This document shows positions 31,062 to 46,313 of a stretch of DNA of 64,000 nt, piece by piece. This DNA comes from Tenacibaculum sp. MAR_2010_89 (lineage in GTDB: Bacteria; Bacteroidota; Bacteroidia; Flavobacteriales; Flavobacteriaceae): NCBI RefSeq assembly GCF_900105985.1, contig NZ_FNUB01000005.1, positions 124,001 through 188,000 of the forward strand, in the 5' to 3' direction. The translations under genes were made by a program, and so were the position numbers. Below the pieces are notes generated by a model, which saw nothing but the letters and a program-made list of their open reading frames with translations, did no database searches and was not told the origin of the DNA. Numbering within the stretch: the first letter of the stretch is position 1; every line of letters begins with the position of its first letter.

Positions 31062-31967
31062 TCATTTTATAATTTCAATATCAAATCCAATAATATCTCT
31101 AATACCTTGTTCAGTCGTTTCTATTGGCTGAATAGGTGTTACATAATGCCATAAATCGTTACCAAAGGTTTTTTCTTCACCAGTATCTGCTTGAAAAGCA
31201 AATTCTCCTAATTCTAATTCTTTATTAAAAACTAACTCTTTATTATTCCCGATTTTCTCAAATATTTGAGTTTCTCCCCCTACAATATTTTTTCTATTTA
31301 CAACCAACGCTGAAATAATATATTGCGCTCCATCTTCATGCATCCCTTCTGGAGAATTCTCGCCTTTCACTTCTCCTTTTGTTAGGGTTCTCATAAAATG
31401 ACTTGTAATTTTTAGTTTATAAATTTCAGGGTGGATACTAGCTACTAATTCAAACGCCTTTTGAAGTAACTGATAAAACAATTCATTTTCAACAGCTTGT
31501 TCTGTTGCTTGTTTAAACTCTCGCTTCCAACTTCTAAAATCATTTACCTTTTGTTCAAAACTATCAGCTTCAACTCGTTGAATTTGATATTCATCTTTAA
31601 CTTTTTCAATCGTAAATGTTGAAATATTTCGTTGTCTTGTTATTGTAGAAACATGTGAGAATTGTTTTTTCTGTTCAATAGTTAATCTAGAAATCCAAGG
31701 CTCTAAAACCTCTACACCGACTTGCTTTTCAAAATAAGATTTATGAATACTACTTATAGAATCAATATCATCAGAAAAATTATTTTTTAGAAACGTTATT
31801 TGATTTTCTTTCACCAAATATTCATCGCTTTCTAAGTTTTCAAACAACGGCTGAAAATAGCTTAGAAACGCTTCTCTATTAATTTGTAACTCTATTAAAC
31901 TTCCTATGCGAATAGGAGATTTAATTTCTCTATTAATTACTGCCGATATGTTTTTTTCGGTAACCAT
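31062..31967 (-). CDS. 2OG-Fe(II) dioxygenase family protein (PF10014-like)
   Basis: 301 residues. The C-terminal half contains the iron-binding motif HEDG (HxD, near residue 219) and SALVVNRKNIVGGETQIFE, then LWHYVTPI with the distal His near residue 277 and an Arg in EQGIRDIIGFDI positioned to bind 2-oxoglutarate. This matches the 2OG-Fe dioxygenase family that includes free amino-acid hydroxylases such as isoleucine dioxygenase; the N-terminal 130 residues are not recognised. It starts 4 bp after the AAA ATPase stop, so the two probably work together. Confidence 0.8.
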   Translation of the reverse strand: MVTEKNISAVINREIKSPIRIGSLIELQINREAFLSYFQPLFENLESDEYLVKENQITFLKNNFSDDIDSISSIHKSYFEKQVGVEVLEPWISRLTIEQKKQFSHVSTITRQRNISTFTIEKVKDEYQIQRVEADSFEQKVNDFRSWKREFKQATEQAVENELFYQLLQKAFELVASIHPEIYKLKITSHFMRTLTKGEVKGENSPEGMHEDGAQYIISALVVNRKNIVGGETQIFEKIGNNKELVFNKELELGEFAFQADTGEEKTFGNDLWHYVTPIQPIETTEQGIRDIIGFDIEIIK

Positions 31968-31971
31968 CTAC

Positions 31972-33867
31972 TTATTCCTTTTCTTGAAATTGTAAATACT
32001 CTTCTACTGTTTTATTTACTGGCGGAATATCTTCTTCTGTTATTGTTTTTAAAATCTCAACTGTTATTGGAGCAATACTCACAATTCTATTAGCTTGGTA
32101 TTCTATTATTTTTTCGAATAAATTTCTTGCCACACGTGCATTTCCAAAATTTTTATCTTTCTTTTCGTAAAACTTATCAAAAATAAAATGCAATTTCTCT
32201 TTCGCATCCTCTATTAATACAAAATCATTCTTTCTACAGAACAACTCAAAAATACCAATTAACTCACTTGGCTTGTAATGATCAAACGTAAAGTATCTAT
32301 TAAAACGCGATTGTAGCCCAGGATTTGATGTAATGAAATTTTTCATTTCATCTGGGTATCCTGCAACAATTACCACCAACTCTTTTCGGTGATCTTCCAT
32401 CTTTTTTAATAACACCTCTATAGCTTCATTCCCAAAATCTTGTTTATTATCTTTTGATAATGCATACGCTTCATCAATAAATAACACACCGTTTAAAGAG
32501 GTATTCACAATCTCTTCAACCTTCAAAGCAGTTTGACCAACATACCCAGCAACCATACCACTTCTATCCGTTTCTATTAAATGCCCTTTTTCAAGATATT
32601 CAAGGTGTTTATATATTTTAGAAACCAAACGAGCAACCGTCGTTTTTCCTGTTCCAGGAGGTCCCATAAAAACAGAGTGCAATGAATTATTTACCGATTT
32701 TAGCCCTTCTTTTTCTCGTAGTTTTTGAACTTTTAAAAAGTTTGCTAATTCTTGAACAGCAATTTTAATAGTATCTAACCCTATCAATTCATTCAATTCA
32801 TCTAATACATCTTGCAACGTTTCATTTTCATCTACTTCAGTTTGTGTTACTCCTTGTAATTTTTGCTTAGGGCGTGATACACTATTATTAATTTCTTTCA
32901 ATGCTTTTTCTTCTTCTTCAGAAATAGTTCCATCAGCTTTTGAAATTAATGTTGCTATACGGTATAAAAAGGCTCCTGTATTTGTAAAGTGCTTATTATC
33001 TAGTTTCTTTAATATTGAAGGTAATAGAAACTCATTTTTATATGCTTCTCCTAAATCAAACAATGAAGCTTTTTGAATAATCTCAATATTTTTATCAAAA
33101 CTATTAGACGTTACAAATTTATTAATTCGTTCAATTGTTAAACTACTAATAATATCATTTCCCTGAAGTTTTTCAAACAGAAAAGCTAGTAAGAATTTCA
33201 CTTTTAAGGTTGCTTCCTCATTGGTAGCATCATGTAATCCATATGTTTTATTATATACTTTTATAATGTCTTGTAAAATTACATGTTCAGCTTTAAACTC
33301 TATAGCATCATCTGTTTTATTTACAATGGTATTGATTACATTAGAAAAATGTTTATTTCTATTTAAATCTTCAGCTAATTCCTGAATTTTCTCTCCTTCT
33401 TCTTTTAAGATTTCTAAAAAATCATGCTCAATTGCATAATCTTTATCTCCATTCTCTTTTTGATTTACAAAATCTTTAAACTTATTTGTAAAATACTCTA
33501 AATTCTTTTTTTCTTCTTTTTGTTGTAAATGAAGATTTTCTATTAACTTTTTTAAATAGGCTATATGCTCTTTAGGAAAAAAACTAAATGCAGTATGATC
33601 TAAAGAGTTTACTGTTAATGGCAACACCAAGTTTTTAGTATGTATTTTTTTTGATGTTACAATAAAATCTAGCTGACTTTGATCTTTTTTTGTAGAGTAT
33701 AACAACAATAAATCTTCTTCTTTTAATTTTAATGAAGAAAAAACATTCGATAAACTTACTATTTTAATTGGATTTACTGTTTTTCCTTTAAAAAAAAAGG
33801 GTTGAACAGTTTCATTTAATTGCAAAAAAAAACGATCAACAATTTTATAGTGTTTTGTACTGTACAT
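31972..33867 (-). CDS. CbxX/CfqX-type AAA ATPase with TerB-like domain
   Basis: 631 residues. The N-terminal part (1-300) is mostly uncharacterised, with a helical charged region about 110-200. A TerB-like helix set at about 300-335 carries the ISKADGTISEEEEKALKEI motif. The AAA domain (about 360-610) has Walker A GPPGTGKT, AGYVGQTALKVEEIV, Walker B VLFIDEAY, sensor-like VIVAGYPDEM, and the arginine finger region GLQSRFNRYF. The AAA class is that of CbxX/RuBisCO activase and EccA, which remodel enzymes or secretion complexes. With a dioxygenase gene directly downstream, it may remodel or activate that enzyme or its protein target. Confidence 0.82.
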   Translation of the reverse strand: MYSTKHYKIVDRFFLQLNETVQPFFFKGKTVNPIKIVSLSNVFSSLKLKEEDLLLLYSTKKDQSQLDFIVTSKKIHTKNLVLPLTVNSLDHTAFSFFPKEHIAYLKKLIENLHLQQKEEKKNLEYFTNKFKDFVNQKENGDKDYAIEHDFLEILKEEGEKIQELAEDLNRNKHFSNVINTIVNKTDDAIEFKAEHVILQDIIKVYNKTYGLHDATNEEATLKVKFLLAFLFEKLQGNDIISSLTIERINKFVTSNSFDKNIEIIQKASLFDLGEAYKNEFLLPSILKKLDNKHFTNTGAFLYRIATLISKADGTISEEEEKALKEINNSVSRPKQKLQGVTQTEVDENETLQDVLDELNELIGLDTIKIAVQELANFLKVQKLREKEGLKSVNNSLHSVFMGPPGTGKTTVARLVSKIYKHLEYLEKGHLIETDRSGMVAGYVGQTALKVEEIVNTSLNGVLFIDEAYALSKDNKQDFGNEAIEVLLKKMEDHRKELVVIVAGYPDEMKNFITSNPGLQSRFNRYFTFDHYKPSELIGIFELFCRKNDFVLIEDAKEKLHFIFDKFYEKKDKNFGNARVARNLFEKIIEYQANRIVSIAPITVEILKTITEEDIPPVNKTVEEYLQFQEKE

Positions 33868-34382: not shown

Positions 34383-35420
34383 TTACTTCTTTATCGCCTT
34401 CTCTAATTTAGTAACTCTTTCTAACAGTGATTTTAATATTATGTTTTCTTTTTCTAACTTTTCAATTTTAGAATTCTGTTCTTTTAATTGCTTAACTTCT
34501 TTATCTTTTTCATTTAATCTTTTCTCTTGCTGCAATGTATACAACGTTAACTCTTCAATTTTCTGTAATAACTTAGCATCCATTTCACCTAAAAAGAATC
34601 CGTTTTTTTCTACTTCCTTAGCACTAGGGATATCTTTTAAATGTCCTTTCTCTTTAATGTGTTTTTCTACTTCAGTAAGTGTTGGTAATTTATATTCTTT
34701 TTCAAATACAAAATCTGACCAATTCGCGTAGCTCGCTACTTTTACTTCTGTTGTTGCTATTTTTCCATTTACGCCTAATTTAAATCCTTTAGTATCTGTA
34801 GTACCAATTCCAACATTACCATTCGTTTTAATTGTCATTCGAGCAACATTACTTGTCATAATTCCAAAATCATGATTAGATATAGTTCCTACTTTAGAAT
34901 TCCCTCCCATATGTGACCATAGAGCTGTTTGAACACCTGTCTGTCTCTCTTCTATTAAAATTCTTGAATGTACATTATCATCAATATTAATAGTTTGTCC
35001 CCAACTACCTGGATTTGAAAAAGTCTCATCCCCAACATAAAGGTGTCCATTTCTAACATCTAATTTAGCACTTGGTGTTGTAGTTCCAATCCCTACTTCG
35101 CCATCTTTGTTTAAATAAAATTTAGCAAAACTTTTTTGAGAACTAGCTGTATTTAGCTCATTATTATTACTTACACCAATCATAAAACTGTTTGCATGAT
35201 CGGTATAAGGGTTTCCAATAAACCAATTATTTGTTTGTCCTAAAGTAAATATTCCTGCTCCTCTATAGTCGGAATGACTTTTTAAAAATATCTTAGAGGC
35301 AACATACCCACTTCCATTATCTGCATTAACTTGGAAATAACTACTTACTTCGTTTTGTGCAGTAACCCCAAAGCACATACCTACTATTGTTACAATAGTA
35401 ATTTTCATTCTTGTTTTCAT
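34383..35420 (-). CDS. Secreted fibre-like protein, paralogue 1
   Basis: 345 residues. Signal peptide about 1-21 (ending VTAQ-N). The N-terminal domain (about 22-105) has NNWFIGNPYTDHANSFMIG and ends in VGIGTTTPSAKLDV, the repeat found in Bacteroidota tail-fibre-like surface proteins; a second GNVGIGTTD follows. The C-terminal part is the conserved LPTLTEVEKHIKEKGHL with DIPSAKEVEKNGFFLGEMD and a coiled coil (about 285-345) likely to trimerise. It may form a surface fibre or be exported; there is no type IX sorting domain that I can recognise. Third gene of the tandem operon, 9 bp after paralogue 2. Confidence 0.75.
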   Translation of the reverse strand: MKTRMKITIVTIVGMCFGVTAQNEVSSYFQVNADNGSGYVASKIFLKSHSDYRGAGIFTLGQTNNWFIGNPYTDHANSFMIGVSNNNELNTASSQKSFAKFYLNKDGEVGIGTTTPSAKLDVRNGHLYVGDETFSNPGSWGQTINIDDNVHSRILIEERQTGVQTALWSHMGGNSKVGTISNHDFGIMTSNVARMTIKTNGNVGIGTTDTKGFKLGVNGKIATTEVKVASYANWSDFVFEKEYKLPTLTEVEKHIKEKGHLKDIPSAKEVEKNGFFLGEMDAKLLQKIEELTLYTLQQEKRLNEKDKEVKQLKEQNSKIEKLEKENIILKSLLERVTKLEKAIKK

Positions 35421-35429
35421 ATTTTTTTT

Positions 35430-36734
35430 TTATTTTTCTAATAACCTTTTAACCAAAATTTTTAACTCTTTTAATTCTTTTTCTTGTTTCTCAAATTTTT
35501 TATCCTGCTCTTTTAATCTCTTCTCTTGCTCCAATGTATACAAGGTTAGTTCTTCAATTTTTTGTAATAACTTAGCATCCATTTCACCTAAAAAGAATCC
35601 ATTTTTTTCTACATCCTTAGCACTAGGGATATCTTTTAAGTGTCCTTTTTCTTTAATGTGTTTTTCTACTTCAGTAAGTGTTGGTAAATTATAGTTTTTT
35701 TCAAATACAAAGTCTGGCCAATTTTCTCTTAATTGAACCTTAACTTCTTCTGTTATTGTTTTCCCTGCTACTGCAAGTTTATATTCAGAAGGAATATTTT
35801 CTGTTCCAATTCCCACTTTTCCTCCTTGAGGATTTATTAAAAATGTTCTATTTTGGGAATAATTAATTGGATTTTTAGCTTGTATGTATCCAGCATAATC
35901 TTGATTATGACTATTAATTATACCTGATAAAATTTCAGTTCCACCCCAGCTTCTATCTGTAAAACCAATTCTTAAAAAACCATTTGGTGAACTACCTGAA
36001 GTTGCTGGTAATCCAAATGAATTGGATGCCACATCCAATTTAGTACTTGGATTTATTGTTCCTATACCTACATTACCTTTTGTATCAATTCTTAATTTAA
36101 TATTTTGGTTAGAATTAGCAACTTCGTCAAGAGTTACATTTCCTTCTTTTCCAAAAAAATCAATTTGCCCATTTTGTCCCATTTTTATTCCTGAAAAGCC
36201 ATCAGTTTTTGTTTTACCAACTCTTGCAACAAAATTATCATCTCCTCCATTATATCTCGTATAAATATTTTTTCCTAAAACTAAACCACCATCAGAACGT
36301 GTTGAGCCAATTGATGAATATCCTTTTCCTCCTCCAAGTGTAATTAAACCATTTAAAGTTCCACTACCTATTTGTAAATTCCCTTCTGGAGATGTCGTTC
36401 CAATTCCAACCCTACCATTGGCGTTCAAATAAAATTTAGCAAAACTTTTTTGAGCAACTGGGTCAATACCGTCACTTTTGTTACTTACCCCAATCATAAA
36501 ACTATTTGCATGATCAGTATAAGGGTTTCCTATAAACCAATTATTGGTTTGCCCTAAAGTAAACAGTCCAGTACCTCTGTCATTACTATGACTCTTTAAA
36601 TAAATTTTTGATGCGACATATCCATTTGAATTGTCTGCATTAACTTGGAAATAAGTGCTTACTTCGTTTTGTGCAGTAACCCCCATGCACATCCCTACTA
36701 TTGTTACAATAGTAATTTTCATTCTTGTTTTCAT
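35430..36734 (-). CDS. Secreted fibre-like protein, paralogue 2
   Basis: 434 residues. Signal peptide nearly identical to paralogue 1, but residues 22-110 are nearly identical to paralogue 3 (only Val/Ile differs in the DGIDPxAQKSFAKFYL stretch), so it looks like a mosaic. The middle has VGIGTTSPEGNLQIGSG, a GNVGIGTINPSTKLDV unit and GGKVGIGTENIPSEYKLAVAG, followed by the same LPTLTEVEKHIKEKGHL coiled-coil C-terminus. It lies 11 bp after paralogue 3 in the same operon. Confidence 0.75.
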   Translation of the reverse strand: MKTRMKITIVTIVGMCMGVTAQNEVSTYFQVNADNSNGYVASKIYLKSHSNDRGTGLFTLGQTNNWFIGNPYTDHANSFMIGVSNKSDGIDPVAQKSFAKFYLNANGRVGIGTTSPEGNLQIGSGTLNGLITLGGGKGYSSIGSTRSDGGLVLGKNIYTRYNGGDDNFVARVGKTKTDGFSGIKMGQNGQIDFFGKEGNVTLDEVANSNQNIKLRIDTKGNVGIGTINPSTKLDVASNSFGLPATSGSSPNGFLRIGFTDRSWGGTEILSGIINSHNQDYAGYIQAKNPINYSQNRTFLINPQGGKVGIGTENIPSEYKLAVAGKTITEEVKVQLRENWPDFVFEKNYNLPTLTEVEKHIKEKGHLKDIPSAKDVEKNGFFLGEMDAKLLQKIEELTLYTLEQEKRLKEQDKKFEKQEKELKELKILVKRLLEK

Positions 36735-36745
36735 AAAAATATTTT

Positions 36746-38056
36746 TTATTTTTCTAATAATCTTTTAACCAAAATTTTTAACTCTTTTAGCTCTTTTTCT
36801 TGTTTAGCTATTTTAGAATTTTGCTGTTTTAACGCCTTAATTTCTTTGCTTTGTGAGTTTAATCTTTTCTCTTGCTTAAGAGTATACAACGTTAACTCTT
36901 CAATTTTTTGTAATAACTTAGCATCCATTTCCCCTAAAAAGAATCCGTTTTTTTCTACATCCTTAGCACTAGGGATATCTTTTAAATGTCCTTTTTCTTT
37001 AATGTGTTTTTCTACTTCAATAAGTGTTGGTAATTTATATTCTTTTTCAAATACAAAGTCTGACCAACCGCTTGCTTCTACTTTTATTTCTCTTGCTCCT
37101 ATTGATCCTTCTACAGCTAACTTGTGATTTCCTGTATTTAAAGTTCCTATACCTACATTACCAGTATTTAAATTGATTACCATATTATGATCATAACCAT
37201 TATTAATTCTGTTTTTATCAAAACCGAAAAAACCAAAAAAATCACCTACCCCTCCTAAATTCACAGTATGTCCAGAAGATGTTTTTTGTCTAATTAACGA
37301 ATGATAACTACCTGTTACCAATTGTGTATTAGAAGTAATCCCACCATTACCTGTTTTACCAGTAATCCAACTACTTCCAGGCGCAGTAAATGAAAGATTT
37401 CCGTTAATTTCTAACTTTGTTTTAGCAATTAACACTCCAATTCCAATATTACCATTTTCTAAGTTCATAACCATATTATGATCATAACCATTACTAGTTC
37501 TATTTTTGTCAAATCCAAAAATACCAAAGTAATTGCCTATTCCTCCTAAATTCACAGTATGACCGGAAGATGTTTTTTGCCTAATTAATGAATGGTAAGT
37601 ACCTGTCTGTAATTGAGTATTAGAAGTAATCCCACCATTACCTGTTTTACCAGTAATCCAAGTACCTCCAGGTGCAATAAATGCTAAATTCCCACTTACG
37701 TCTAATTTAGCACTTGGAGTTGTTGTTCCAATCCCTACTCTACCATTGGCATTTAAATAAAATTTAGCAAAACTTTTTTGAGCAATAGGGTCAATACCAT
37801 CACTTTTATTACTAACCCCAATCATAAAACTATTTGCATGATCGGTATATGGATTTCCTATAAACCAATTATTTGTTTGTCCTAAAGTAAATAATCCAGT
37901 ACCTCTGTCATTACTATGACTCTTTAAATAAATTTTTGATGCGACATATCCATTTGAATTGTCTGCATTAACTTGAAAGTAAGTACTTACTTCGTTTTGT
38001 GCTTTAATTCCTAAACACATAGTCACCATAGCAATGACTGCAATTTTTATTTTCAT
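36746..38056 (-). CDS. Secreted fibre-like protein, paralogue 3, with internal duplication
   Basis: 436 residues. Signal peptide about 1-20. Two copies of a roughly 85-residue unit at 122-206 and 219-304 (period 97) share WITGKTGNGGITSNTQL and YHSLIRQKTSSGHTVNLGG and each ends in an NxGIG strand turn. The C-terminal LPTLIEVEKHIKEKGHL and coiled coil are shared with the other two paralogues. First gene of the operon, with a -7 box 29 bp upstream. Confidence 0.75.
   Translation of the reverse strand: MKIKIAVIAMVTMCLGIKAQNEVSTYFQVNADNSNGYVASKIYLKSHSNDRGTGLFTLGQTNNWFIGNPYTDHANSFMIGVSNKSDGIDPIAQKSFAKFYLNANGRVGIGTTTPSAKLDVSGNLAFIAPGGTWITGKTGNGGITSNTQLQTGTYHSLIRQKTSSGHTVNLGGIGNYFGIFGFDKNRTSNGYDHNMVMNLENGNIGIGVLIAKTKLEINGNLSFTAPGSSWITGKTGNGGITSNTQLVTGSYHSLIRQKTSSGHTVNLGGVGDFFGFFGFDKNRINNGYDHNMVINLNTGNVGIGTLNTGNHKLAVEGSIGAREIKVEASGWSDFVFEKEYKLPTLIEVEKHIKEKGHLKDIPSAKDVEKNGFFLGEMDAKLLQKIEELTLYTLKQEKRLNSQSKEIKALKQQNSKIAKQEKELKELKILVKRLLEK
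37145..37402 (-). repeat. Intragenic duplication, second unit (paralogue 3)
   Basis: Encodes residues 219-304 and is a near copy of 37439-37693 at the protein level, with most changes around the FGFFGFDKNRINNG segment. Confidence 0.8.
37439..37693 (-). repeat. Intragenic duplication, first unit (paralogue 3)
   Basis: Encodes residues 122-206; see the copy at 37145-37402. The two units share long identical peptide runs, so the duplication is recent or homogenised. Confidence 0.8.
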
Positions 38057-38112: not shown

Positions 38113-38922
38113 CTAATTTCCAGCATCAATTTGCATCATGGCATCTTCAACCTGATGTACTAATTCATCAAAATGTGCTAATCTTTTCGTTTCTCTAGTT
38201 CTATTAAAAGGTAGATCGACATTAATATGTTTTACGAAATTTGAAGGCGCATGCTTCATTATATAAATATCATCTGCTAAATACACTGCTTCTTGAATAT
38301 CATGTGTTACAAACAAGATGGTTGGACTAAATTTTTCCCAAATACCTATTAATAGATCTTGCATTTGTAAGCGTGTTTTCACATCTAATGCACCAAAAGG
38401 TTCATCCATTAATAAAATTTCTGGGTTCGACATTAAACTTCTAGCAATAGCAACACGTTGTAATTGTCCTCCAGATAAGTTTGGATATTGTGCATACTTT
38501 TTTTGATGCCCATCTAAACCTACCAGTTGAATCATTTCCATTGCACGTTCATCTCTTTCTTTTTTAGAGATTCCCTGAAACTGTAATCCTAAACCAACAT
38601 TGTCTAGTACCGTCATCCATGGTAAAGAAGAGTATTGCTGAAACACCATGCTTACCCGGTTTTCTTTACTTACAGGTTTCCCTTTCACCAATACAGAACC
38701 AGAAGTTGGTTCTTGTAATCCGGCTATATATCTAAGCAATGTAGATTTTCCACAACCTGACATTCCTAAAATTACACCAAATTGCCCCTGCATGGGTTTG
38801 TCTTCAATTAATAAATCTAAATTTTCAATTATTTGAGTTTTTCCATTATTATACGATTGATGTATGTTGCGTAACTCAATAATATTTCCTGTAGTAGGAT
38901 TATCTATAAATTCTAATGCCAT
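38113..38922 (-). CDS. ABC transporter ATP-binding protein (nitrate/sulfonate/taurine type)
   Basis: 269 residues. Walker A GMSGCGKST (near residue 53), Q-loop VFQQYSSLPWM, signature LSGGQLQRV, Walker B ILLMDEPFGALD and switch His in FVTHDIQEAV. The Q-loop and FGALD patterns match SsuB/TauB/NrtD-type import ATPases. It drives uptake through the permease encoded 2 bp upstream. It is the last gene of the six-gene operon that includes the OmpA-fused binding protein. Confidence 0.92.
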   Translation of the reverse strand: MALEFIDNPTTGNIIELRNIHQSYNNGKTQIIENLDLLIEDKPMQGQFGVILGMSGCGKSTLLRYIAGLQEPTSGSVLVKGKPVSKENRVSMVFQQYSSLPWMTVLDNVGLGLQFQGISKKERDERAMEMIQLVGLDGHQKKYAQYPNLSGGQLQRVAIARSLMSNPEILLMDEPFGALDVKTRLQMQDLLIGIWEKFSPTILFVTHDIQEAVYLADDIYIMKHAPSNFVKHINVDLPFNRTRETKRLAHFDELVHQVEDAMMQIDAGN

Positions 38923-38924
38923 AG

Positions 38925-39896
38925 CTAATGTTTGTTACCTTTATTTACATGTTTAAACGGAAATAATACTTTATCAATCATTACAAAAATCTTATCCTGT
39001 AATACTCCAATAATTACAATAATTATTAAAATAGCAAAAGCTTTATCTATTCTACTTTGTCTTTTCGCTGTCCATATTAACTCACCAATTCCACCACCTT
39101 TATTTAACATTTCAACAATAGTAATGTAGGTCCAAGAAATAGCCGTTAACACTCTAATATCATCAATTAATTTAGAAAGTACATAAGGAATGTAAACCGT
39201 TTTTATTGTTTGCCAAGGCGAAGCTCCTAAAGTAAATACCGTATTTAAATATACTTTTTGAACCTCATCTATTCGTTGAACAACTACCGGAATTAAATAT
39301 ACAACTATACCAAAGGCTAAAAACGACACTTTCATCTGACTTCCTAAACCTAACCACATAATAAAAATACCAGTTACAGCAGTTAGTGGAATAAAACGAT
39401 ACGAATCTATAATTTTACTAAACAAGCCTCTAAACAAAGGTACTAACCCTAATAAAAAACCAATAGGAATAGCTACAACTATTGCTAATAAATAACCAAA
39501 AATATTTAATTTTATAGAAAAGAATGTATTTCCAATTACATCATCATCTCTATTTAATTCAGGAAATGCTTTAATTACTTTTATAGGAGAAGGTAACAAT
39601 GGGTATACCTTATTTTTTATCAATCCATATTGCTCTAATTCTTCTTTATTTAAAAGTTCTAATTTATCATAACTAGCAACTAATATAGAATCGTTTTCAT
39701 AATAAAGTTTATTTTCTTGCTTTAACGTTGAAACGTTTATGGATCCATTTTGTGTGATAACAGAATTTGATAAAACTTCTGCCATTAAGAACCATATTAA
39801 AACAAGAATTACGCTTCCCAAAATGGTAAGCGTAATTTTTTGTTTTGAGTCTAGTTCTCCACGTAACTCAAATAATTTTTTAAAATCAGTACTCAT
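38925..39896 (-). CDS. ABC transporter permease with periplasmic insert
   Basis: 323 residues. First helix about 25-46, then an unusual periplasmic insert of about 55 residues (47-105) before the canonical PSPIKVIKAFPEL start of SsuC/TauC-like permeases. Five more helices follow (about 125-150, 165-185, 190-212, 250-275, 285-305), with the EAA-type loop GASPWQTIKTVYIPYVLSK that contacts the ATPase. Its first base is shared with the stop of the upstream binding-protein gene. The insert may contact the tethered binding protein. Confidence 0.88.
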   Translation of the reverse strand: MSTDFKKLFELRGELDSKQKITLTILGSVILVLIWFLMAEVLSNSVITQNGSINVSTLKQENKLYYENDSILVASYDKLELLNKEELEQYGLIKNKVYPLLPSPIKVIKAFPELNRDDDVIGNTFFSIKLNIFGYLLAIVVAIPIGFLLGLVPLFRGLFSKIIDSYRFIPLTAVTGIFIMWLGLGSQMKVSFLAFGIVVYLIPVVVQRIDEVQKVYLNTVFTLGASPWQTIKTVYIPYVLSKLIDDIRVLTAISWTYITIVEMLNKGGGIGELIWTAKRQSRIDKAFAILIIIVIIGVLQDKIFVMIDKVLFPFKHVNKGNKH

Positions 39897-41443
39897 TAGT
39901 CTACTACTAATTCAAAGTCCGTTCTTCTATTCTTTGCCTTACAGTTAGCATTTTGATTCCTTTCGCATCCAGCAATAGGCTTATCAGGCCCGTTACCAAC
40001 AATAATAAATCTGTTTTTAGGCATGTTATGCTCACTTATTAAATACTGAGCAACAGAATTAGCTCTTCTTTTAGAAAGCGCAATATTAGAAGACCTTCCT
40101 CCTACATTATCAGTATTCCCTTCAATTCTAATACGAGCATTGGCAAACGCTCTTGCTATTGGGGTAAATTGAACATCTATTAATTGCTTTGCATTATCAC
40201 TTAACTGATATTCTCCAGTTCTAAAAGTGATACTTACTTTTTTAGAAGAAAGTGATTCTTTTTTAGCTACGGTTTCACTTGCCGCAGTAAACTCTTTTTG
40301 TTTTTCAGAAGTATGATTGGCTCCTATTAATGATTTTGTTTTAGACACTAAATCTCTTGTAGATAATAATCTCCAGCTTTTTGCTCCTGAAGTATTATAT
40401 CCTAAGTTATTATACTTCACTTTCATTTTGTTGTATAAATCTTCTCCAGTAACACCATTATAATTTTGATTCATACCAAAAAAGTTTTCATTATCTCCAT
40501 GAGTTGCTAAACGCACATTATTAATTGCATCATAACAAAAATCTTCTGGTTGTGATAAACCTTCAGCTAAAATTTTCGCTGCTTTTCTTTTATTCGCATC
40601 TGAATTATTAAGTTCAGAAGCTCCAATCATCCAACCTTCATATAAATCACGAAGTTGTTCTTTATTTTTTTCAATAAAATTTTTCTTAGAAACAAATACA
40701 TCAGCAATGATATGTGTTGCATTTTTAGTACTTTCTAACACACGTGCTCCAGCAACTTTACTAACACAATCAGCATCATCTGGACTCCAAACTACTGCTG
40801 CATCAACTGTTCCACTTTTAAAAGCGTCTGCAGCATCAATAGCACTTGGTACCTCTACAATTTTCACCTGACTTGTTTTAATATCTCCAGCTTCTAATAA
40901 CCAAATTAAAAACGAATGAGAAGGCGTCATAGGCGCTACTGCAATTTTCTTACCTTTTAAATCACTAACCTTTCTAATTCCTCTTCTTGCAACAATTGCA
41001 TCACCACCACGACTCCAATCTGCTTGAAAAACTACTTGTGGTTGGTATTGTGATAATCCTTCAACTTCAGTAGGAAAAGCATCAATTGTTGCCCACATTA
41101 AATCAATATCTCCATTTTTAAATGCATCTCTTGAAGCATCAAAATCATCAATTACCTTAAAGTTTACTTTAAAGCCATAGTCCTTGTAAAATCTAGAGTT
41201 CGTATTTGCTTCAAATCCTTCATTAAAATATTGTCCACCTGCATAACCACCCCAAGTTACTACACCTACATTAATAACATCTTTGTATCCATCTTTTGAT
41301 TTAGAACTAGATGTTGAAGTAACTTCATTTATTTTTTGCTTTACTTTAGGGTCACGTAATTTATTTAATAGGTAATACACCCCTCCAATTATTGCTAAAA
41401 CAATAAGTATTTTTGAAAATGGAGTTAGTCTTTTTCCTGCCAT
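39896..41443 (-). CDS. Tethered substrate-binding protein fused to OmpA domain
   Basis: 515 residues. N-terminal membrane anchor (about 9-26) without a cleavage site or lipobox. A periplasmic binding domain of the NMT1/SsuA/TauA type (about 55-385) follows: VINVGVVTWGGYAGGQYF, GDIDLMWATIDAFPTE, DLKGKKIAVAPMTPSHSFL and DAAVVWSPDDADCV. After a Ser/Lys-rich linker (about 385-402) comes an OmpA-like peptidoglycan-binding domain (about 405-515): IRIEGNTDNVGG, NIALSKRRANSVAQYL and KNRRTDFEL, with a likely disulfide between the Cys of GCER and ANCK. The protein should bridge inner membrane and cell wall. Ligand unknown. Confidence 0.85.
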   Translation of the reverse strand: MAGKRLTPFSKILIVLAIIGGVYYLLNKLRDPKVKQKINEVTSTSSSKSKDGYKDVINVGVVTWGGYAGGQYFNEGFEANTNSRFYKDYGFKVNFKVIDDFDASRDAFKNGDIDLMWATIDAFPTEVEGLSQYQPQVVFQADWSRGGDAIVARRGIRKVSDLKGKKIAVAPMTPSHSFLIWLLEAGDIKTSQVKIVEVPSAIDAADAFKSGTVDAAVVWSPDDADCVSKVAGARVLESTKNATHIIADVFVSKKNFIEKNKEQLRDLYEGWMIGASELNNSDANKRKAAKILAEGLSQPEDFCYDAINNVRLATHGDNENFFGMNQNYNGVTGEDLYNKMKVKYNNLGYNTSGAKSWRLLSTRDLVSKTKSLIGANHTSEKQKEFTAASETVAKKESLSSKKVSITFRTGEYQLSDNAKQLIDVQFTPIARAFANARIRIEGNTDNVGGRSSNIALSKRRANSVAQYLISEHNMPKNRFIIVGNGPDKPIAGCERNQNANCKAKNRRTDFELVVD

Positions 41444-41464
41444 AATTTATAATTTGATTTGTTG

Positions 41465-42472
41465 TTAAAAATTGAATAAATCTGAATATTGATTATCTTG
41501 ATTTCCTCTATTATTTTTTAATATTGGTGCATCTAAATCTACACTATGACTATCATTTACCAATATATCTTTTTGGTTTCCTAATATTAAAGAAACTCCT
41601 TCTTTTTCCCATTTTTCTAGTAATTCCAGTCCTTCTTCTTCAAAAATACCATTCTGTAAATCAATAGAGTCCATAAAGTTATTTGACATTTCCATAAAAC
41701 GTTCCATTTCTCCAATTTTCATACTTACATCATCTGCAATTGCTTCCAAAGCTCTATCAAACATTTCTTTTTTATCTGAATTCCCAGCAATAATATCCAT
41801 AGCTGATTTCATAGCAGAATGGCTTGCTCGTATTGCTTTTCTTTCCTGTTCCTTAACAGTTACCTGATCTTCAATATCTTCTACTAAAATTTCAGAATTC
41901 TCATACATCTTGGTTAATACTCTGTATAAAATTTCTAATTTCCTATACAGCTCATCCAATCGTAAATTAGATTCTTTTAAACGTCCAGCCTTTCTAGACT
42001 TCAAAATCATTATTCCTTTCTTGTCTTTCTGCTTAGCTGCGTTTGCAAGTTTTAAATTACTATTTATGCTTTTCTTATTTTCGTTAATAATTTGTTGTAA
42101 ACGTCTCATCTGTCCTTTTAAAACAGCGATTTGTTTATTCATTTTTTTCAAATTGCTTTTTAAATCGTCTACATAACTTTTTAAAATACCAATTGGATCA
42201 ATCTGAATAAATATACCTGTTATCCAACGCATAAATGATTTATACATGTAGAAAATCAAGTTTCTCATTTTAGGATCTAAGATCATATAAATAACAGCTC
42301 CCAAAACAGCTAATAAAACTCCTAAATACAAAGTATTTTCAACAATAGTAATTAGATATGGAAGTACTTTATACAACCCGTATAAAGCTCCTGCTCCTAA
42401 TAAACCTGTAAATAACATTCCTGTTTTTCCTTCAGGTCTTTCCCAAAAAGATTTTGGTTTTAAATTTTCCAT
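41465..42472 (-). CDS. Membrane-anchored coiled-coil protein of the ABC-OmpA operon
   Basis: 335 residues. Two adjacent hydrophobic segments (about 18-36 and 43-63) are followed by long helical heptad-rich stretches (about 80-140 and 150-230) and a helical region with MFDRALEAIADDVSMKIGEMERFME. The C-terminal 45 residues are acidic and low complexity. The overall pattern is reminiscent of PspA/ESCRT-III-like coiled-coil proteins, but I cannot claim membership. It is encoded 1 bp after a second coiled-coil gene and 21 bp before the binding-protein gene, so it probably scaffolds the transporter. Confidence 0.65.
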   Translation of the reverse strand: MENLKPKSFWERPEGKTGMLFTGLLGAGALYGLYKVLPYLITIVENTLYLGVLLAVLGAVIYMILDPKMRNLIFYMYKSFMRWITGIFIQIDPIGILKSYVDDLKSNLKKMNKQIAVLKGQMRRLQQIINENKKSINSNLKLANAAKQKDKKGIMILKSRKAGRLKESNLRLDELYRKLEILYRVLTKMYENSEILVEDIEDQVTVKEQERKAIRASHSAMKSAMDIIAGNSDKKEMFDRALEAIADDVSMKIGEMERFMEMSNNFMDSIDLQNGIFEEEGLELLEKWEKEGVSLILGNQKDILVNDSHSVDLDAPILKNNRGNQDNQYSDLFNF

Positions 42473-42473
42473 A

Positions 42474-43145
42474 TTACTTTAAATATTGTTTCATTTTTTC
42501 TACATCTTGCTCTAATTGTGTTCTTAGATGGTGATAAGAAAGCTTAAAATCATTTTTAGTCTTATCTATTTTCGCTTTACTCTCATCAACAACCTTTCTT
42601 AATTCAGAAATTTGTGCCTGATGTTTTGTTATTTCTTCAGTAAGTTGTTTTATTTTTTGTGATTTTTCTTTAATTATTGCATCAAATTGAACAATCTCTT
42701 TTTCTTTGTCTCCAACCTTAGTGGTTAACTGTCCTTCAAAAGCTTTTGTAAAAGAGTTGTTTTCATTATCTAAAACACTAATATAATGTTTTGTTGAATC
42801 GATTAACTTACTTAATGTAACTCCCATTGTTGATGCAGTTGCATAAGTTGATCTGTATTTTGTTGCTTCATCCATTGGGATTTTTTCTAAAGCCTTTAAT
42901 GCTTTTTTAAACTCCAAATAGTCAAATCCTTCTAAATTATTTTTCTCTATAGCTTGTAGTAACTTATCAATAATAGCATTATCAACGGCTCCCTTACTTG
43001 TAGGAGGTACATTTACAGTAGTTTTATTTTTTGCAGGTTGTTCCGTCTTTTTTACAACAGTCTCTTTTCCTTCTTTATTTTCAGGCTCTTTCTTTTCATC
43101 TGATGAATCATCTACTATAAATAGTGATTTTAAATTTTTTAGCAT
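42474..43145 (-). CDS. Cytoplasmic coiled-coil protein of the ABC-OmpA operon
   Basis: 223 residues. No signal or membrane helix. Residues 10-50 are charged and disordered (DDSSDEKKEPENKEGK); a helical domain (55-115) precedes a long C-terminal coiled coil (about 125-223) with EKEIVQFDAIIKEKSQKIKQL. No family is recognised. It lies 1 bp upstream of the membrane-anchored coiled-coil gene, so direct pairing of the two proteins is plausible. Confidence 0.6.
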   Translation of the reverse strand: MLKNLKSLFIVDDSSDEKKEPENKEGKETVVKKTEQPAKNKTTVNVPPTSKGAVDNAIIDKLLQAIEKNNLEGFDYLEFKKALKALEKIPMDEATKYRSTYATASTMGVTLSKLIDSTKHYISVLDNENNSFTKAFEGQLTTKVGDKEKEIVQFDAIIKEKSQKIKQLTEEITKHQAQISELRKVVDESKAKIDKTKNDFKLSYHHLRTQLEQDVEKMKQYLK

Positions 43146-43210
43146 AAATAATCAAATTTTAACAAATTTAAAAAAAATAACGAATTATAAGGTATACAAA
43201 GGCATTGTTA

Positions 43211-43714
43211 TTACTTAACAAACCTACTCCAACCTATTTTTAACACAATAAGAAGCACTATAAAAACACCTATCAAGTGTATAAAGCTCCCAATAAAAAA
43301 GATACCTATAAAAATTCGTTGAATAAAATAGGTAACAATAAATGCTATGAAAATCATAATAAATAACCCTGACAATCTACTAAAACCAGGTATTCGTTGT
43401 AACGGGATTGTTTTTTTTATGATTAATAACAATACAATCATAGCTATAATTGGCAAATAATAAGTTACCACTTGAAGAGTTATCAAGTTTTGGCCTAAGA
43501 AGAAAAAATTATAAACCACTAAAATTATCGATAACAATCCTGGTATTACAGCTGCATATATTAAAATTGTGTATAAATAATTGATCGGAGCTTTAAAATC
43601 CTGTGCCTTAACAAACAGCAATCCACATAAAGAAATAATAAGTAATGTAACGTAGTAATTAATAATTATATTAGATTTATCACTAAGTAAGTTTATAATA
43701 TCTTGTACAGTCAT
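43211..43714 (-). CDS. Small multi-pass membrane protein heading the ABC-OmpA operon
   Basis: 167 residues with about five hydrophobic segments (20-36, 45-68, 80-100, 112-130, 138-160) and very few charged residues; it ends in LLIVLKIGWSRFVK. No family is recognised. It is 65 bp upstream of the first coiled-coil gene on the same strand, so it is probably the operon's first gene, though a promoter in that gap cannot be excluded. Confidence 0.6.
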   Translation of the reverse strand: MTVQDIINLLSDKSNIIINYYVTLLIISLCGLLFVKAQDFKAPINYLYTILIYAAVIPGLLSIILVVYNFFFLGQNLITLQVVTYYLPIIAMIVLLLIIKKTIPLQRIPGFSRLSGLFIMIFIAFIVTYFIQRIFIGIFFIGSFIHLIGVFIVLLIVLKIGWSRFVK

Positions 43715-43816: not shown

Positions 43817-44530
43817 ATGAAAAACGCAATCACACTTCTTGCTTTACTTTTATCAATTTTATCTTTCTCCCAAGAATTAACTGGACTCGAATTACTAGAG
43901 AAATCTATTCAATATCATGATCCAAATAATAAATGGAAAACATTTAAGGGCACATTATGGGTGAATATGGTTACTCCTAATTCTCCAATTCGAAATAGTG
44001 AAATTACAATTGACCTACCGTCTGATTATTTTTATTTAAAAGCTTTTAAAAATAAAAATACTACAGAGTATTCTATCAACAAAGGTATTTGTAAAATCGA
44101 ATTTAATAAGAAAATCAACCTCTCAGAAAAAACAAAAAAAGAACACAATCTAAGCTGTAAACGAGCTAATCTTTATAAAAATTATTACACCTACTTATAT
44201 GGTCTTCCAATGAAACTAAAAGATAAAGGAACTATAATTCACAATAAAACAACGCGAAAAAATTTTAAAGGACAAGACTATATCGTTTTAAAGGTTACTT
44301 ATGAAAAAGACGTTGGCAAAGATACTTGGTATTTCTATTTTAATCCTACAACGTATTCCATGGAAGTTTATCAGTTTTTTAAAAACACTAAAGATAGTGG
44401 TGAGTATATATTATTGTCAGAAGAAGAGATTATTAATGATATTAAAATGCCTAAAAATAGAGCTTGGTATTACAATAAAAACAACAAGTATTTAGGAAGT
44501 GATATTTTAGAAAAAAGCAACTCGATTTAA
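43817..44530 (+). CDS. DUF6503 exported LolA-like protein
   Basis: 237 residues. Signal peptide 1-18 (ending SFS-Q). The mature part starts with ELLEKSIQYHDPNNKWKTFKGTL, a pattern typical of DUF6503, and ends in DIKMPKNRAWYYNKNNKYLGSD. The fold of this family is LolA/LolB-like, a half-open barrel that could carry a lipid. Periplasmic or outer membrane. It is followed 7 bp later by the CLC gene. Confidence 0.75.
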   Translation: MKNAITLLALLLSILSFSQELTGLELLEKSIQYHDPNNKWKTFKGTLWVNMVTPNSPIRNSEITIDLPSDYFYLKAFKNKNTTEYSINKGICKIEFNKKINLSEKTKKEHNLSCKRANLYKNYYTYLYGLPMKLKDKGTIIHNKTTRKNFKGQDYIVLKVTYEKDVGKDTWYFYFNPTTYSMEVYQFFKNTKDSGEYILLSEEEIINDIKMPKNRAWYYNKNNKYLGSDILEKSNSI

Positions 44531-44537
44531 ATTAACT

Positions 44538-46313
44538 ATGCCTAATACTAAAACGTTATTTAAAAAAATACTTATTTGGAGGTACAAAAACATTTCTGAA
44601 CGTCAGTTTATTTATGTTTTAAGTATTTTAGTTGGTTTTTTGGCTGGAATTGGCACACTAATTCTAAAAAACTTAACCTACTTTTTTCAATATATTTTAG
44701 AAGGAAAGTTTATAAAAGATATTCATTATTCTTTGTATTTTATCTTTCCAATTATAGGATTATTCTTAGTTTACTATATTAAAAATAAAATTATTAAAAA
44801 GGAAATTGGTCATGGTATCTCAACAACTTTGCATGCTATTTCCAAACGTAGCGGAATTATTGAACAATATAAAATATACGCTTCACTTATTACAGCACCA
44901 ATAACTGTTGGCTTCGGTGGATCTGTTGGTTTGCAAGGCCCTTCTGTAAGCACTGGAGCAGCGCTAGGATCTGGAATAGCACAGCTGTTTCATATGAACA
45001 CCAAAACTAGAATGTTACTAATTGGATGTGCAACAGCTGGAGCAGTATCATCTATGTTTAAAGCCCCAGTTGCTGCTATTATTTTTGCTGTTGAAATTTT
45101 TAGTTTAGATTTAGCTTTTGCATCTCTCATCCCTCTTTTATTAGCTTCAGTTTCTGGAGTTATTGTTTCTTATTTTTTCTTAGGAAAAGATGTTTTATTA
45201 GGATTTAAACTCCAAGACGACTTTTTAATTAACGATCTATTTTTCTACATTTTATTAGGCTTAGGAACTGGTATCGCATCTGTATATTTTTCTAAAATTT
45301 ATTTTAAAATCACTCGTTTTTTTAACCACTTCAAAAGTGATTTTCACAAATTGATTATTGGTGCTTTTGCTATTGGTTTTATGTTATATTTAATACCACC
45401 TTTGTACGGTGAAGGTTATAATATAATTAATAGCTTATTAGAACACAATGCTCAAGAAGCACTTAACGACCTTCCTTATGAAATTGATTTTAACAACGTT
45501 TGGATAGTTGTTCTTTTTTTACTTTTAATAACAGTCTTTAAAGCTATTGCAATGACCACTACTTTTGCTGCTGGTGGAGTAGGAGGAATTTTTATACCTA
45601 CCTTAGTAATGGGGAGTGCACTAGGTAATGTATTTGCTAAAATTATAAATGAGTTAGGTGGTCAAGTTTCTGAAAGTAACTTTACATTAATTGGAATGAG
45701 CGGCCTAATGGCAGGCGTACTACATGCTCCTTTAACTGCTATTTTTTTAATTGCAGAAATTACTGGTGGTTACGATCTTTTTGTCCCTTTAATGCTTGTA
45801 GTTGCTATATCTTTCGCCTTAACAAAATACTTCGTTTCAAACTCAATATACACAATAGAACTAGCAAAAAGAGGGGAACTTATTACGCATAATAAAGATA
45901 AGAATGTGATGATGATGATGCGTATCGATAAATTAATTGAAAAAAACTTTAAAATAATTCACCCAGAAATGACACTAGGAAAAATGCTAAAAGAAGCCGT
46001 TGCAAAATCATCAAGAAATATTTTTCCTGTTTTAGACAATGAACATCGTTTTTTAGGTATTGTTTTATTAGACGATATTCGTCCGTTAATGTTTGAACAA
46101 GAAATGTATGACACGCTAACAATTCAAGTACTTATGAAAAGTGCTCCAGCTATTATTTTTCATGATGATAGTATTGAAAAAGTAATGCAGAAATTTAAAG
46201 AAAGCGGCGCATGGAATTTACCCGTTATCAAAAACAAAAAATATATTGGTTTTATTTCTAAATCTAAACTACTATCTGCCTACAGAACTAAATTAATTGA
46301 ACTTACTGTTTAA
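44538..46313 (+). CDS. CLC family chloride channel/transporter with CBS domains
   Basis: 591 residues. The membrane part (about 20-425) has the CLC signatures GHGIS (near 91), GSVGLQGPSVSTG (128-140) and GGVGGIFIPTL (near 352). Two CBS domains follow (about 460-580). The gating glutamate of GxEGP is replaced by Gln133 (codon CAA at 44934-44936), so the local motif is GLQGP. In E. coli ClC-ec1 the equivalent E148Q change abolishes proton coupling. Anion transport is therefore likely, while proton exchange is doubtful. It converges on radA. Confidence 0.92.
   Translation: MPNTKTLFKKILIWRYKNISERQFIYVLSILVGFLAGIGTLILKNLTYFFQYILEGKFIKDIHYSLYFIFPIIGLFLVYYIKNKIIKKEIGHGISTTLHAISKRSGIIEQYKIYASLITAPITVGFGGSVGLQGPSVSTGAALGSGIAQLFHMNTKTRMLLIGCATAGAVSSMFKAPVAAIIFAVEIFSLDLAFASLIPLLLASVSGVIVSYFFLGKDVLLGFKLQDDFLINDLFFYILLGLGTGIASVYFSKIYFKITRFFNHFKSDFHKLIIGAFAIGFMLYLIPPLYGEGYNIINSLLEHNAQEALNDLPYEIDFNNVWIVVLFLLLITVFKAIAMTTTFAAGGVGGIFIPTLVMGSALGNVFAKIINELGGQVSESNFTLIGMSGLMAGVLHAPLTAIFLIAEITGGYDLFVPLMLVVAISFALTKYFVSNSIYTIELAKRGELITHNKDKNVMMMMRIDKLIEKNFKIIHPEMTLGKMLKEAVAKSSRNIFPVLDNEHRFLGIVLLDDIRPLMFEQEMYDTLTIQVLMKSAPAIIFHDDSIEKVMQKFKESGAWNLPVIKNKKYIGFISKSKLLSAYRTKLIELTV

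Follow-up and report, generated by a model that had tools for sequence, protein, structure and literature searches.

The region at positions 38113 to 43714 of a 64,000-nucleotide stretch of Tenacibaculum sp. MAR_2010_89 (contig NZ_FNUB01000005.1, positions 124,001 to 188,000; the whole stretch is called the window here) raises the question of why the genes of an ATP-binding cassette (ABC) importer stand in one operon with a wall-binding substrate-binding protein and two coiled-coil proteins, and what these proteins may do together. The region holds six open reading frames (ORFs) on the minus strand, numbered 1 to 6 in the direction of reading, and the intergenic gaps of 65, 1, 21, -1 and 2 bp given in a preliminary description of the sequence agree exactly with the ORF list. 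The host genome comprises 4.17 Mb in five contigs, and the nearest named relatives of the gene 4 protein belong to Tenacibaculum and Aquimarina. Our data indicate that genes 2 to 6 form a core of five genes that is conserved in order in Bacteroidota and in huge phages. This anatomy is well supported by gene content, order, conservation, key residues and the kinship of gene 3 with PspA; the mechanism that we infer, an importer station with an ESCRT-III-like scaffold, has about an even chance of being correct.

A five-gene core in Bacteroidota and huge phages

The core encodes, in order, a helical protein of 223 residues (gene 2, 42474 to 43145), a PspA/ESCRT-III-like protein of 335 residues (gene 3, 41465 to 42472), a substrate-binding protein of 515 residues with an OmpA domain (gene 4, 39896 to 41443), an ABC permease of 323 residues and TauC/SsuC type (gene 5, 38925 to 39896) and an ABC ATPase of 269 residues and TauB/SsuB type (gene 6, 38113 to 38922). 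To determine its distribution in bacteria, genome contigs were scanned with the window protein, and 80 of the 100 confirmed loci were kept; by title, nearly all of these are from Bacteroidota, with one from Chlorobiota and one from a Thiotrichaceae bin. Genes 2 to 6 are found in the same order at 56 of the 80 loci, and because the order is kept at so many of them it is beyond chance. The expectation in the preliminary description that the two coiled-coil genes accompany the ABC genes is thereby borne out in relatives' loci. Gene 1 (43211 to 43714; 167 residues, five membrane segments by hydropathy, no Pfam match) had been counted as a further part of the operon. It was found at only 22 of the 80 bacterial loci, titled Tenacibaculum, Aquimarina or Aureisphaera, and at no viral locus, and it is therefore placed outside the core as a clade-specific gene.

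Among the other 24 bacterial loci, one (L074) has the whole set but its permease gene is split, 12 are cut off by the end of their contig within 1.7 kb on the flank where genes are missing, and three (L084, L116 and L118) lack the permease and ATPase within 2.1-2.6 kb. The remaining eight have about 8 kb available, yet partners are missing. At five of these (L085, L095, L108, L112 and L114) the binding protein is accompanied by gene 3, and mostly by gene 2, and neither permease nor ATPase lies within the next 8 kb downstream; at L111 and L119 the binding protein, permease and ATPase are present and genes 2 and 3 were not found in the 8 kb covered upstream; and L081 has no partner genes in about 8 kb. 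The five-gene unit is thus usual but can be split. It is also an accessory trait: the operon was detected in at least 6 of 296 genomes of the phylum (E 1e-60, with five candidates scored per genome, which makes this a lower bound) and in 8 of 97 genomes of the genus, a count that includes the host genome and one copy with two stops. In that last genus member (G318:C8:1969-3243) the binding-protein gene carries two stop codons in the matched stretch and is apparently a decaying copy.

Among phages, a tblastn search with the binding protein matched 28 records. In 20 of these the match spans at least 80% of the protein: 15 Lak megaphage records, two records of one 735-kb phage, two records from phage G and a single faecal record. 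Plain tblastn with gene 3 matched these 15 Lak records alone. The PHROG family phrog_25518, which has no assigned function, spans nearly the whole binding protein (E 5e-53). When viral loci were compiled, including 25 loci from IMG/VR, genes 2 to 6 were found in the bacterial order at 22 of 30, among them Lak megaphages and phages of 462 and 735 kb. The number of independent phages is smaller than these 22 loci, as L014 and L034 appear to come from a single phage and Lak accounts for both L010 and L011, and the counts exclude L030, which is phage G again, and L015.

The excluded L015, an unverified faecal record, carries the permease, a gene 2 match, a PspA-type gene and the binding protein. 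Phage G (L012) and its relative L029 carry the binding protein, permease and ATPase in a different order, with coiled-coil neighbours. The coiled-coil genes of phage G were missed by the hidden Markov models of genes 2 and 3 at E 1e-3; in profile-profile comparison with HHalign the gp246 type matches gene 2 with 95.5%, and for the gp247 type the values are 84.1% to gene 3 and 61.4% to PspA. Of the other viral loci, L013 has a divergent cluster, no gene 2 or gene 3 was recognised at L027 and L028, and at L036, L039 and L040 the match is confined to the OmpA part.

A search for terminases of family PF03237 was positive for 13 of 27 viral records, and all six named phage records are among these. 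No PF03237 terminase was found in the other 14, two of which exceed 350 kb, and the viral label there comes from IMG/VR. In Lak-A2 the five genes (L010, 5367 to 11733) contain no in-frame TAG over 1706 codons, compared with 17.7 predicted from 113 other ORFs in three 50-kb pieces; 58 of those 113 ORFs are likewise free of TAG, so that five consecutive TAG-free genes would have a chance of about 0.04 if independent. A Lak-A2 ORF with a terminase match near the cassette has 17-18 in-frame TAG codons.

A binding protein with predicted anchors and a PspA-like protein

The binding protein combines an NMT1_2 match (E 4.4e-14) with an OmpA match (E 2.2e-17) in Pfam. Its NMT1/TauA-type ligand-binding domain covers residues 82-293 (40565 to 41200) and its OmpA-like wall-binding domain residues 406-497 (39953 to 40228), the latter scoring 63.6 bits against a cut-off of 27.2 for PF00691. 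A hydropathy scan predicts a single membrane segment, the N-terminal anchor at residues 8-26 (41366 to 41422). D445 and R460 align with the Asp and Arg of Acinetobacter baumannii OmpA (chain 3td3), positions that we take to be the diaminopimelate-binding residues of OmpA-like domains. In an alignment of 32 diverse family members, picked from 47 representatives plus the window protein, R460 is kept in all 32 and D445 in 29, the three exceptions being two phage G proteins and the L029 protein. In phage G the binding protein is encoded twice in tandem (L012, 8001 to 11206), and neither copy has the wall-binding Asp. The preliminary description had the binding protein reaching from the inner membrane to the wall, and the predicted double anchoring holds, with an N-terminal membrane segment and an OmpA domain in which both wall-binding residues are present.

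In terms of transport, the set of a NitT/TauT-type type I ABC importer is complete: an NMT1-like domain, a BPD_transp_1 permease (E 8.1e-15) and an ABC_tran ATPase (E 3.6e-31) whose translation shows the Walker and signature motifs. Residues S144, G146, D148 and P221, in the ligand-pocket region of the binding protein, are identical in all 32 aligned members, and from the family they probably line the ligand pocket. The binding protein falls below the cut-offs of the named NCBIfam models (urea type, SsuA and TauA), the best being TIGR03427 with 76.6 against 333.9 bits. The permease insert at residues 47-105 (39582 to 39758), which had been suggested as a dock for the tethered domain, can hardly be a general device of this kind: it is missing from all four phage permeases aligned, and short permeases of 254-261 residues also occur at four bacterial loci.

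These results bear on two alternatives. The locus could encode an ordinary importer of the taurine, sulfonate or nitrate kind, with a binding protein that is wall-anchored only incidentally and with PspA-like and coiled-coil genes that only aid folding or placement. Every importer part matches the TauABC/SsuABC/NrtABC-type families, and L111 and L119 have these parts without genes 2 and 3, as this reading would have it. We nevertheless regard it as unlikely, given that genes 2 and 3 still accompany the binding protein where the permease and ATPase are missing (L095, L108, L112 and L114), that they are found with it at 22 of the 30 viral loci, and that the binding protein lies under the cut-off of every curated equivalog model among the matches listed. 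The second alternative, proposed in the preliminary description, is a passive mechanical tether, in which the binding domain would not serve transport and the assembly would measure or keep the distance between membrane and wall. The predicted double anchoring of the binding protein, and the loci with genes 2 to 4 and no permease or ATPase within 8 kb, would be consistent with a tether; invariant pocket residues across very distant copies would not, and the permease and ATPase that most loci retain would be needless for it. Given the conservation of both the ATPase and the residues of the ligand pocket, transport is a simpler reading than the sensing of envelope spacing, and we consider the passive tether very improbable.

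Gene 3 was compared with PspA by HHalign, which gave 96.6% (E 7e-10), whereas 20 column shuffles of its soluble part gave at most 1.71%. The predicted fold is a long helical hairpin followed by further helices, for which Vipp1 is the top-ranked match with modest scores; the predicted ESCRT-III-like helical core, residues 92-229 (41786 to 42199), begins at the family-invariant Pro93. Hydropathy predicts one weak membrane segment at residues 36-54. Gene 3 itself is below the curated Pfam cut-off for PspA_IM30 (19.1 against 33.9 bits); its phage G-type relative in L015 exceeds that cut-off with 42.4 bits, and the host genome also encodes a separate PspA above it. Sequence matches of genes 2 and 3 in the Protein Data Bank (PDB) are to generic coiled coils, and a gene 3 profile search, in which 5615 of 7998 candidates passed E 0.001, was not used further. 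Judged by its profile, gene 3 is a relative of PspA/ESCRT-III and not a generic coiled coil. The preliminary description had treated the two coiled-coil proteins as scaffolds of the complex; the co-occurrence with the ABC genes stands, and the generic coiled coil does not for gene 3.

The gene 2 protein was modelled with AlphaFold2 as three short helices followed by one of 110 residues (mean predicted local distance difference test 84.8), and its near-invariant residues are N70, G73, D75, E78 and Y121. The predicted fold has no PDB match at E 0.001. A second PspA was considered for gene 2 and rejected on that absence of a fold match and on an HHalign value of 1.09% to PspA. Against gene 3 the value is 5.05% (7.12% for the soluble part); the profiles used in these comparisons were those of PspA and gene 3.

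Taken together, we propose that the five-gene operon encodes a fixed importer station, predicted to be held between the inner membrane and the wall and stabilised by an ESCRT-III-like scaffold, and we put this just short of an even chance. The binding protein would be held twice, by its N-terminus in the inner membrane and by its OmpA domain on the peptidoglycan, and this double anchoring would keep the ligand-binding domain above the permease without diffusion. With energy from the ATPase, a small solute of the kind handled by the nitrate/taurine transporter class would be imported. The membrane-attached PspA-like protein may polymerise around the station and seal it against leakage, and the gene 2 protein is its putative partner in the cytosol; where a SpoVK/CbbX-type AAA+ ATPase stands beside the cassette, it may disassemble the polymer. 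For huge phages, whose five genes come without the AAA+ ATPase, the cassette could keep the membrane of an infected cell supplied and intact. Across all domains of life, membranes are shaped and repaired by ESCRT-III proteins, and to our knowledge little is known about their use in bacteria beyond the classical Psp response. Here a relative of theirs is genetically bound to a transporter and a wall-binding protein.

Downstream genes and possible exchange between phages and bacteria

The operon extends past gene 6, and an AAA+ ATPase and a 2-oxoglutarate (2OG)-Fe dioxygenase belong to the same operon type. The AAA+ gene was found 3' of gene 6 at 25 of the 80 bacterial loci, with a gap of less than 200 bp at 18 of these and of 0.6-1.7 kb at seven. 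The dioxygenase follows it on the same strand at 19 of the 25 loci, and nine of the 25 have a superfamily 1 (SF1) helicase. By title these loci are mostly from Flavobacteriaceae, and L062 is from Lacihabitans. In the window the AAA+ ATPase (31972 to 33867, minus strand; SpoVK/EccA/CbbX type, 631 residues), which is 75% identical to the L041 copy, and the dioxygenase (31062 to 31967, minus strand; PF10014, 301 residues) together occupy 33867 to 31062 and are separated from gene 6 by three tandem paralogues. No AAA+ gene was seen in the 11 kb read past gene 6 of another genus member (L148), and neither helicase nor AAA+ was recognised beside any phage cassette. Of 11 further bacterial genomes searched, nine encode a related AAA+ protein, as does phage G (10 of 27 records overall); most of these proteins have about 870-920 residues, and the count takes no account of position relative to the cassette. 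The phage G record L134 (439337 to 440179) has a distant AAA+ relative, with 40% identity over query residues 320-600, far from the cassette.

The three tandem paralogues (34383 to 38056, minus strand; 436, 434 and 345 residues) have 'GIGTT.P..KLDV' repeats and a coiled-coil end; they match no Pfam model at cut-off, and the one scanned against NCBIfam had no match. They are an apparent insertion that lies outside the system. On the other side, the operon is flanked by genes for a DUF6503 protein and a CLC chloride channel (43817 to 46313). Both are present without the operon in all six of the operon-less genus members examined, in each of which 14 kb was read. In L148 the operon adjoins the chloride channel, and no DUF6503 match was seen.

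The downstream genes and the patchy distribution could also point to a Zorya-like system for defence or superinfection exclusion that watches the envelope. The wall-tethered part would notice phage entry, the AAA+ ATPase and helicase would act inside, and phages would carry the core against rivals. The presence in 8 of 97 genus genomes, the occurrence in phages, and the SF1 helicase at nine loci and AAA+ ATPase at 25 would fit such a system. PADLOC models also match the AAA+ ATPase (IetA, E 2.6e-11), the helicase (MkoA/MkoC, about 1e-40) and the ABC ATPase (mads_3, 1.5e-26), and genes 2 and 3 weakly match coiled-coil defence proteins; but matches of ATPase, helicase, AAA+ and OmpA proteins to defence models are expected from such broad families. 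Among the six window proteins PADLOC found no ZorA, ZorC or ZorD match at E 0.1, only ZorB models by way of the OmpA domain, and the phage cassettes have no recognised helicase or AAA+ gene beside them. Defence is a quite unlikely explanation.

Two trees of the binding protein bear on possible exchange between phages and bacteria. An earlier tree of 71 rows, whose bacterial rows were close relatives of the window protein only and were thinned by shared 4-mers, allowed a single change of the viral label. In a tree of 50 rows, to which five more distant non-viral rows were added, with bacterial rows thinned from 43 to 20 and three long-branch viral rows dropped (two of L013 and one of L015), the label needs four changes, and the well-supported branches force at least three. 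A single viral origin was rejected on this tree. L144 and L146, which belong to the window's own family and have the five genes plus the AAA+ ATPase, cluster together with two viral contigs (99/90), and the clade that contains them is mostly viral. These trees have long branches and uneven sampling, and do not fix the root, the direction of transfer or dates. It is conceivable, if rather less probable than the importer station itself, that giant phages of unrelated hosts use a wall-tethered importer and ESCRT-III-like scaffold of their own to keep the envelope of the infected cell both energised and supplied while a long infection lasts, and that the module moves in both directions between phages and Bacteroidota chromosomes. 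The interest of the finding lies mainly in the phages, a side that is not visible from the window sequence alone. Since the unit is kept in order by phages with some of the largest genomes, its benefit is testable, and the proposal would give a first function to the phage families phrog_25518 and phrog_33389, which are listed as unknown.

Comparison with known systems

The importer parts resemble TauABC, SsuABC and NrtABC in the families of binding domain, permease and ATPase, but the binding protein here is predicted to be anchored in membrane and wall and scores far under the equivalog cut-offs. Gene 3 resembles PspA and Vipp1 in its profile-profile match and predicted helical hairpin, and differs in its predicted N-terminal membrane anchor, its score under the Pfam cut-off and its tie to an ABC importer. 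The Vibrio plasmid pSEA2 and the 595-kb phage LR756511 likewise carry an ABC ATPase, a permease, OmpA-type binding proteins and coiled-coil partners; both have an additional VWA protein, and the Vibrio cluster alone has TelA. The Vibrio plasmid (L129, 5355 to 14130; typed mobilizable) encodes an ABC ATPase, two OmpA-type binding proteins, VWA, TelA, a third binding protein and a permease, and the 595-kb phage (L013, 7881 to 16443) resembles the Vibrio plasmid in layout, its cluster including a VWA protein and three binding proteins. No HHalign match above 8.2% was obtained between the coiled-coil proteins of these two clusters and genes 2 and 3.

Another huge phage with a PspA-like gene is the Jug phage (preprint PMC12363816), in which the gene is a neighbour of terD; its text does not contain the word 'transporter'. 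TerD (PF02342) was found in 0 of 28 records here, and with TelA confined to the Vibrio cluster a tellurite/Ter link was rejected. The accessible passages of the Lak paper (PMC8346664) mention a transporter once, for magnesium, and OmpA, PspA or a permease not at all, and those of a Psp survey (PMC9239133) hold nothing on an operon of this kind. Within the open-licence literature, as far as its text was available, no report of phage copies of the cassette was found, nor of the fixed five-gene core or a form free of AAA+; the bacterial kind is already in print.

That closest precedent is the bacterial PspA/Snf7-AAA+-ABC-PBPB/OmpA operon described in one passage of Ravi et al. 2024 (mSystems, PMC11237479), where a link between membrane remodelling and solute transport is proposed for such operons. 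As far as that passage describes it, its ABC ATPase, permease, PBPB-OmpA protein and PspA/Snf7 relative with a transmembrane segment all have counterparts here, and the window also has the AAA+ ATPase (31972 to 33867), behind the three tandem genes. The present system differs from it in a five-gene core of fixed order, in a second coiled-coil protein of unassigned kind and in being carried by huge phages, with an AAA+ gene beside the core at 25 of the 80 bacterial loci and at L144 and L146.

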